Source: Mesotoga sp. BH458_6_3_2_1 (GTDB taxonomy: Bacteria; Thermotogota; Thermotogae; Petrotogales; Kosmotogaceae). Taken from it: 64,000 nucleotides of DNA. Position 1 is the first letter of the stretch; every line of letters starts with the position of its first letter. The stretch is taken from the NCBI RefSeq assembly GCF_003664995.1, contig NZ_JFHL01000009.1, forward strand, positions 62,001-126,000. Reading direction: 5' to 3'. Below, piece after piece: positions 19,379 to 51,930 of this stretch. The notes below the pieces were generated by a model. That model saw only the letters and a program-made list of their open reading frames with translations, did no database searches and had not been told where the DNA came from. The position numbers were made by a program, and so were the translations under genes.

Positions 19379-19821
19379 TTAAGACACTCCATAGTGATCT
19401 CTTCTCACAATTATATACTTTGCCCCTGTTCAAAAGCCATTGATCGTTTCACTGCAGCTTGTGTATAGTCAGTTGCAAGATCTTTAATAAGCCCTTCGCG
19501 CCTCGTCCTAAGAGCCGTTGTTGGTGGTACGTGGTTTGTCAAGAGCAAGGAGCTAGATCCCGTATCAAGTAAAGAATGATGAAATCCAGTTGTCAGAACC
19601 AACTCGGTTCATCATCTGAACTGTCAAATGCCAGAGATTACTTAGAGAGCAAAATGACGGTAGAAGGAGTAGTTGACAGTCACTGGAATGCTCTTGGCCA
19701 TGATCTAGATCCTTGGATCGTTCTAAATACCAGATCCTGTGCAGAAGCCCTTAACAGGATCCCTGAACAGGAGATTTTCAGGGCAGCCTCTACTGGATGA
19801 CATTGTCAGACGATTATGCGA

Positions 19822-20032
19822 TTCTTTTGTAGGGGCGAACGGCTGTTCGCCCGAAAAAGGTCCTGGTAGGAATCTCTGCCTTTTACGCGAAAAATGGGAC
19901 AGACATGAGGAGAATTGTCAGTCCCTATTTTCGCTCTCATCTTCTCGTGAGCGAAGCGAACGTCTCCGACGTGCTCTTTCTCGGTTTTTACAGCGACCAG
20001 CGGGTCCTCGTTCATAAGCGTAGAGCGGATAT
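19822..20032 (+). repeat. Long duplicated segment, copy A
   Basis: Begins with the hairpin GGGCGAAC-GGCT-GTTCGCCC and runs through TTTTACGCGAAAAATGGGAC to CAGCGACCAGCGGGTCC. It is nearly identical to 20118-20320. Copy A has an extra GACA in the middle and a different loop in the first hairpin. Confidence 0.8.
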
Positions 20033-20117
20033 TTCATGCGAGATCCCGTGCAGACCCCCTGAACAGGAGCGCTTCAGGGCAGGCTCTACGCGATGACAAT
20101 TTAAGATGACTGTGCAG

Positions 20118-20320
20118 TTCTCTTGTAGGGGCGAACGGCCGTTCGCCCGAAAAAGGTCCTGGTTGGTATCTCTGCCTTTTACGCGAAAAATGGGACATGA
20201 GGAGAATTGTCAGTCCCTATTTTCGCTCTCATCTTCTCGTGAGCGAAGCGAACGTCTCCGACGTGCTCTTCCTAGGTTTTTACAGCGACCAGCGGGGTTA
20301 CGTTCTTAAGCGTTCAGCGG
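20118..20320 (+). repeat. Long duplicated segment, copy B
   Basis: Second copy of the 200-bp segment at 19822-20032, in direct orientation about 295 bp downstream. The leading hairpin is GGGCGAAC-GGCC-GTTCGCCC. Divergence concentrates at the 3' end. Confidence 0.8.
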
Positions 20321-20327
20321 CTCCTAG

Positions 20328-20374
20328 CCCGCGAAGCGGAACTGGCCACCGAAGGTGACTGGCCTGCGCAGCAG
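20328..20374 (-). repeat. GCCAGT-spaced hairpin array, copy 2 (three hairpins)
   Basis: Read on the minus strand: CTGC-TGC-GCAG, spacer GCCAGT, CACC-TTC-GGTG, spacer GCCAGT, TCCGC-TTC-GCGGG. It lacks the CTCGCC hairpin present in the other two copies, so unit number varies. Confidence 0.75.
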
Positions 20375-20436: not shown

Positions 20437-20542
20437 CCTGCCGAAGGCAGCCTTGCGACCTGGCGTGGTCTTCGCCAGCCTTGCGTCCACTGATGCTCTT
20501 CAGTGCCTTGCGTCCCGGCATGATCTTTGCCGGCATTGCGTC
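20437..20542 (+). repeat. TTGCG hairpin array, copy 1
   Basis: Tandem units of 28 bases. After an opening hairpin CTGCC-GAA-GGCAG, three units have a near-constant spacer GCCTTGCGWCC, a near-constant loop TGNTCTT and a variable paired stem: TGGCG/CGCCA (20461-20477), ACTG/CAGT (20489-20504) and CGGCA/TGCCG (20516-20532). The tail is ATTGCGTC. Confidence 0.75.
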
Positions 20543-51754: not shown

Positions 51755-51870
51755 ACGCGCTGAGAACCGTCATTGGTGGTACGTGGTTGGTGGTTGGCAA
51801 GTGCTTATAAACAAATAAGTGAACAATCACGATCAGAATGATTCGGGAAAACCATCCGGAGACCCAAGGT

Positions 51871-51930
51871 TGGGCAAGAACGGCCCAGGTCGCAATGCCG
51901 GTGAAGAACATGCCGGGACGCAAGGCTGCC
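51871..51930 (-). repeat. TTGCG hairpin array, copy 2
   Basis: On the minus strand: spacer CTTGCGTCC, arm CCGGCA, loop TGTTCTT, imperfect arm CACCGG; then spacer ATTGCGACC, perfect stem TGGGC/GCCCA with loop CGTTCTT. The second stem has no counterpart in the island III copy. Confidence 0.65.

Follow-up and report, generated by a model that had tools for sequence, protein, structure and literature searches.

Tandem short-stem hairpin arrays with constant loop and linker in Mesotoga, a probable branch of REP/BIME-type repeats

The hairpin arrays of the window

The window, a stretch of 64,000 nucleotides from Mesotoga sp. BH458_6_3_2_1, carries a tandem array of short hairpins on its forward strand and a pair of units of the same kind on its reverse strand (Table 1). 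The initial annotation described them as units with a constant linker and loop and a variable palindromic stem, and this description holds over many copies and in several Mesotoga genomes. The tandem units on the forward strand and the pair on the reverse strand are as it reported, but the stems that it gave as 4-5 bp are 5-6 bp long, because the final C of the spacer it defined pairs with a G, and a hairpin with a GAA loop stands at the head of the array. On the reverse strand one unit is imperfect, as had been stated, while the other, to which a TGNTCTT loop had been assigned, has the loop CGTTCTT and is followed by a decayed linker.

As DNA, the forward-strand array folds into four separate hairpins (z -2.1); as RNA it also gives a stable fold (-40.1 kcal/mol, z -1.7). 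Shortly before it, at positions 19761-20320, several palindromic repeats (GGGCGAACGGCCGTTCGCCC, GTCAGTCCC, CCCTGAACAGGAG) are combined into a composite of 292 bp, which is present in two tandem copies. ACTGGC-linked hairpins with GNA loops, such as those listed first in Table 1, are seen again beside other arrays.

Table 1. Parts of the forward-strand array, of the short-hairpin array that precedes it and of the reverse-strand pair (window positions).
Feature	Position	Strand	Remark
GNA-loop short-hairpin array (CCGC-GAA-GCGG, ACC-GAA-GGT, CTGC-GCA-GCAG), linker (A/G)ACTGGCC	20329-20374	+	direct sequence reading
GAA-triloop hairpin CTGCC-GAA-GGCAG heading the array	20438-20450	+	CTGCC is one GNA-loop allele
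Linker CCTTGCGAC	20451-20459	+	9 bases
Hairpin unit 1, CTGGCG-TGGTCTT-CGCCAG	20460-20478	+	
Linker CCTTGCGTC	20479-20487	+	9 bases
Hairpin unit 2, CACTGA-TGCTCT-TCAGTG	20488-20505	+	
Linker CCTTGCGTC	20506-20514	+	9 bases
Hairpin unit 3, CCGGCA-TGATCTT-TGCCGG	20515-20533	+	
Terminal linker CATTGCGTC	20534-20542	+	9 bases
Linker CCTTGCGTC, second array	51917-51925	-	
Imperfect hairpin unit CCGGCATGTTCTTCACCGG	51898-51916	-	
Linker CATTGCGAC	51889-51897	-	
Hairpin unit CTGGGC-CGTTCTT-GCCCA	51870-51888	-	decayed linker CCTTGGGTC after the unit

Copy number, unit anatomy and stem alleles

The strict motif TTGCGNCCN{3,9}TGNTCTT has 77 exact matches in the genome of the window, compared with one for the reversed pattern. 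Four Mesotoga relatives carry 64, 29, 14 and 12 matches; of the other five, two are without a match, a third has one match, and the remaining two, whose genomes are incomplete, have 2 and 3. Outside the genus there are at most two matches per genome, the named matches in public genomes belong to Mesotoga and to Kosmotogaceae MAGs, and a search of viral contigs for arrays found none. A match on a contig labelled Bacteroidales was rejected as an occurrence outside Mesotoga, since the contig is 94-98% identical to Mesotoga DNA over most of its length and is most likely mis-binned. The arrays are largely extragenic, as REP/BIME elements are, with 151 of 174 clusters lying outside ORFs of at least 150 aa, and several of the 23 clusters "inside" ORFs fall in ORFs of 153-230 aa that are possibly spurious. 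With 28-base units in 77 strict copies, they also have the size and abundance of such elements (imperfect palindromes of 20-40 bp in many copies).

We defined units as every body bounded by CMTYRCNWC linkers in about 1.1 Mb of stretches from three Mesotoga genomes; these stretches were picked around strict matches, so that the counts cover part of each genome. This yielded 472 units, 223 of them from the sampled parts of the genome of the window, with body lengths that peak at 13-14 and at 18-19 bases. Long bodies consist of a 5-6 bp stem and a loop AYGNTYYT (usually TGNTCYT), whose G is nearly invariant (188/194 and 114/117). Short bodies have stems closed by C-G, and their loops are nearly all GNA (GAA, GGA, GCA, GTA) or GNNA (GCCA, GGCA and others). 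The 9-base linkers are mostly CMTTGCGWC or CMTCACTTC, starting with CMT after the stem, and the bases before the stem in 417 units are TTGCGTC (153), TTGCGAC (62) or TCACTTC (177). In DNA, GNA and GNNA loops closed by C-G are particularly stable, and the tetraloops preferred by RNA are GNRA; the loops of the short bodies weakly back folding as single-stranded DNA, the copies not being independent of one another.

In the main length classes, five full Watson-Crick pairs are formed by 154 of 194, 94 of 117 and 66 of 75 units (80-90%), and the same pairing is reached by 41, 31 and 17 after the 3' arms are re-dealt. For the long-loop units the corresponding figures are 248 of 311 with five perfect pairs and about 72 with re-dealt arms. 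Counting each distinct arm pair a single time still leaves an excess of paired cells. Given this pairing and the 77 matches against one for the reversed motif, chance does not explain the pattern. The hairpins are real and are members of a large dispersed family; neither of the two outcomes that the initial annotation had named as fatal to its reading, a handful of copies or mostly unpaired stems, occurred.

The stems are not hypervariable, as about 13 discrete alleles, mostly common to several species, cover nearly all copies. In 244 of the 311 long-loop units the stem matches one of six alleles exactly (CTGGC, CCGGC, CGCCG, CCCGG, CTGGG, CACTG), and in 92 of the 106 GNA units it is one of seven. 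The six long-loop alleles all occur in each of the three genomes, as do three of the seven GNA alleles; the alleles CCACC and CCGCC are, among these three, present in G004 only. The type of stem correlates with the type of linker and with position in the array. Deviations in the long-loop units include 43 single changes (14 G-T, 13 A-C and 16 transversion mismatches) and, among all 311 units, 4 compensatory double changes. The similar numbers of G-T and A-C mismatches indicate no detectable tolerance at the RNA level, and the few compensatory doubles indicate that the stems are not under renewal. Allele sharing, the mismatch pattern and the association with linker and position together indicate that the stem variety is a small, old set of alleles that has been copied in blocks.

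Array turnover and alternative explanations

When array neighbourhoods are compared, the ends of homology blocks concentrate at linkers and at the junction of TCTT with TCCCCGCG, part of which any modular repeat would show. Where G000 and G001 were aligned over 100 kb, they differ in that array segments have been swapped for others, with the switches at hairpins or linkers, and one further aligned array is the same in both, stems included; between these two genomes we found only replacements and complex gaps, and no clean insertion or empty site with a target duplication. The intergenic site orthologous to that of the window array, located through the neighbouring gene, carries different arrays on the opposite strand in G004 and G005, and different repeats in G001 and G006 (a comparison that leaves out G002 and G009). 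At this site the species differ by replacement of the whole array, not in the stems.

Neighbouring arrays agree in strand 63 times and disagree 14 times (p 7e-9, with pairs taken as independent, which they perhaps are not). Such agreement would follow from local spread as well as from a replication-direction bias, and in G001 the 4-fold-site skew is too weak to separate the two. At 1204-1325 kb of G001 and on contig C8 of G000 there are islands in which nearly all arrays point in the same direction regardless of the genes. In array cores, TCYT is 2.3 times commoner than its complement on the array strand; it was rejected as a universal boundary motif, much of this excess being the loop itself. 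Upstream of many arrays (L034, L062 and others) there are direct repeats of AACCCG every 15-17 bases, with spacers that contain TCYT.

The initial annotation proposed hairpin copying or template switching, or else selection for structure, as the source of the variable stems. Fold-back or quasi-palindrome correction would perfect stems round a constant loop and so diversify them, and this could account for stem differences of whole pairs under one loop (CTGGC, CCGGC, CTGGG and others) and for the occurrence of the TGNTCYT loop on at least nine stems, both long and short. However, the alleles are few and mostly common to several species, private variation consists mostly of single uncorrected mismatches, and the stems are identical at the aligned G000/G001 site. 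We therefore regard hairpin copying as very unlikely; it is unsupported for the present variation, and the alleles may originally have arisen in this way. The mismatch counts given above show no sign of this activity, nor of ongoing pair-by-pair selection for structure, so that the earlier interpretation stands in its description of the modules and is not supported in its stem-diversifying mechanism. A role as RNA, in which the arrays would be transcribed and selected as hairpins (terminators, 3' UTR stabilisers or small RNAs), would fit their intergenic location and the stable RNA fold of the window array, although the DNA fold is stable too. This explanation is quite improbable, because array strand is nearly evenly divided with respect to flanking tandem genes (35 same, 31 opposite), the nearest gene end is the 3' end 58 times and the 5' end 60 times, G-T mismatches are not in excess over A-C, the tetraloops are GCCA and GGCA and not GNRA, and Rfam gave no match at the window site.

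The arrays could also be the REP partners of RAYT/TnpA-REP-like proteins encoded in the same genome and be mobilised by them directly. The genome of the window has two genes for PF01797 HUH transposases related to REP_Tyr_transpos (NF047646), both below the model cut-off, and one of these lies about 600 bp from an array. We consider this partnership unlikely: G001, which lacks PF01797 matches, has abundant linkers in two contigs (94 and 168), arrays are absent from G007 and G008, where PF01797 does match, and the palindrome near RAYT-type genes in Mesotoga and other Kosmotogaceae is GGGACAGAC...GTCAGTCCC, not the array units. Direct mobilisation of the arrays by RAYT is thus not supported by the distribution of the genes or by their flanks; an enzyme for the arrays that has since been lost is possible. 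The RAYT-adjacent palindromes recall a published TIR-associated class. In the form GGGACAGAC...GTCAGTCCC(T/A)ATTTT they are found in the flanks at L087, L098, L100, L106 and L108 and, outside the genus, at L097, L099 and L109, and they recur many times in intergenic mosaics. In G001, two copies of an element that encodes an IS110-like transposase (recognised by eye from the translation; L062, 10420-11967, reverse strand, and L063, 5366-6913, forward strand) are inserted at the same point of this palindrome, between GTCWGT and CCC, which amounts to site-specific insertion into a REP-like repeat.

Relation to known repeats and proposed interpretation

The closest known repeats with which we compared the arrays are the CGTC-tagged REPs, among which the CGTC-3 family is described from Kosmotoga olearia and, with unusual loops, from Mesotoga prima (Di Nocera et al. 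2013, PMC3733652). In that survey, their stems are 8-9 bp long and start with AT, CGTC is unpaired at one stem end, a short unpaired tail fits CCA, tandem arrays are negligible and no dedicated transposase is reported. The genome of the window contains CGTC-3-shaped palindromes (ATCCCGTA, ATCCTGAC and other stems after TGTC or CGTC) whose loops are often ATGATCCTG, GTGCTCCTG or AATGCTCCTG; these long-stem repeats are likened to the published CGTC-3 consensus by description only. The pattern ATCCYG..TGNTCYT..CRGGAT is found in 9 of 10 Mesotoga genomes (that of the window and 8 of 9 relatives) and in 0 of 31 others, with 0 matches for the reversed control. It is present in two relatives that have no arrays (34 matches in G007, 112 in G008), and the incomplete genome G009 gave no match. 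This distribution indicates that families with stems of different length and sequence, including the 8-bp stems of the CGTC-3-like repeats, have the TGNTCYT loop in common.

Like the CGTC REPs, the arrays consist of short, mostly intergenic palindromes in many copies with several stem types and no dedicated transposase reported, and they share the TGNTCYT loop with the CGTC-3-like repeats of Mesotoga. Unlike them, they have stems of 5-6 bp that start with C, loops of 7-9 or 3-4 bases and units in tandem head to tail. The tag directly before the stem is CGTC in many units but only in part of them, and is often CGAC or CTTC. With the BIMEs and GTAG REPs that accompany RAYT in gamma-proteobacteria they have in common an intergenic mosaic of palindromes and linkers, turnover of whole blocks and a presumed recognition as folded single strands; in contrast, they lack the GTAG (GYAG) tag, use the linkers CMTTGCGWC and CMTCACTTC and form tandem arrays and not inverted dimers, and the RAYT genes here adjoin other palindromes. 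The likening to an inverse CRISPR array in the initial annotation is apt in that constant flanks alternate regularly with a palindromic variable part in units of about 28 bases. It misleads in that the variable part is drawn from about 13 recurrent alleles, mostly shared between species, and not from acquired unique spacers, and the Mesotoga arrays are short and dispersed. A CRISPR-like array, whose repeat GTTTCCATACCACTATGGTTCTTACGCAAC recurs every 65-68 bases, is found at L046 (9588-11889) and at L064.

We think it likely that the arrays are a new branch of the REP/BIME-type repeats, one that is Mesotoga-specific, modular, tandem and short-stemmed; our confidence in any named enzyme for them is much lower. 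They consist of short stem-loops set head to tail with 9-base linkers, together with a second type of unit with a GNA triloop or GNNA tetraloop, and would function and propagate as DNA. The recognition signal for an agent that mobilises or processes folded single strands is probably made up of loop and linker, and the stem may need self-complementarity only. If so, several alleles could have arisen early and then been copied as blocks, and the present diversity would have come about as dispersed arrays duplicated and recombined with one another and then decayed neutrally. Mobility was not observed in these comparisons, and none of the RAYT-type candidates was identified as a dedicated enzyme. 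A more specific proposal, which we hold to be doubtful, is that a Mesotoga-specific factor (HUH-type or other) reads the loop TGNTCYT of single-stranded hairpins whatever their stem; every hairpin family of Mesotoga would then serve as its substrate, stems would be free to vary if paired, and new alleles would arise by copying back across the loop.

REP-type repeats are usually classed by stem and tag. In Mesotoga, loop and linker are constant across several stem families of one genus, and the tandem units form a readable grammar of modules. The 2013 survey (PMC3733652) left open what the machinery that mobilises or binds the CGTC repeats targets, because no dedicated enzyme was found; with a constant loop and linker and such a grammar, what this machinery reads becomes testable.
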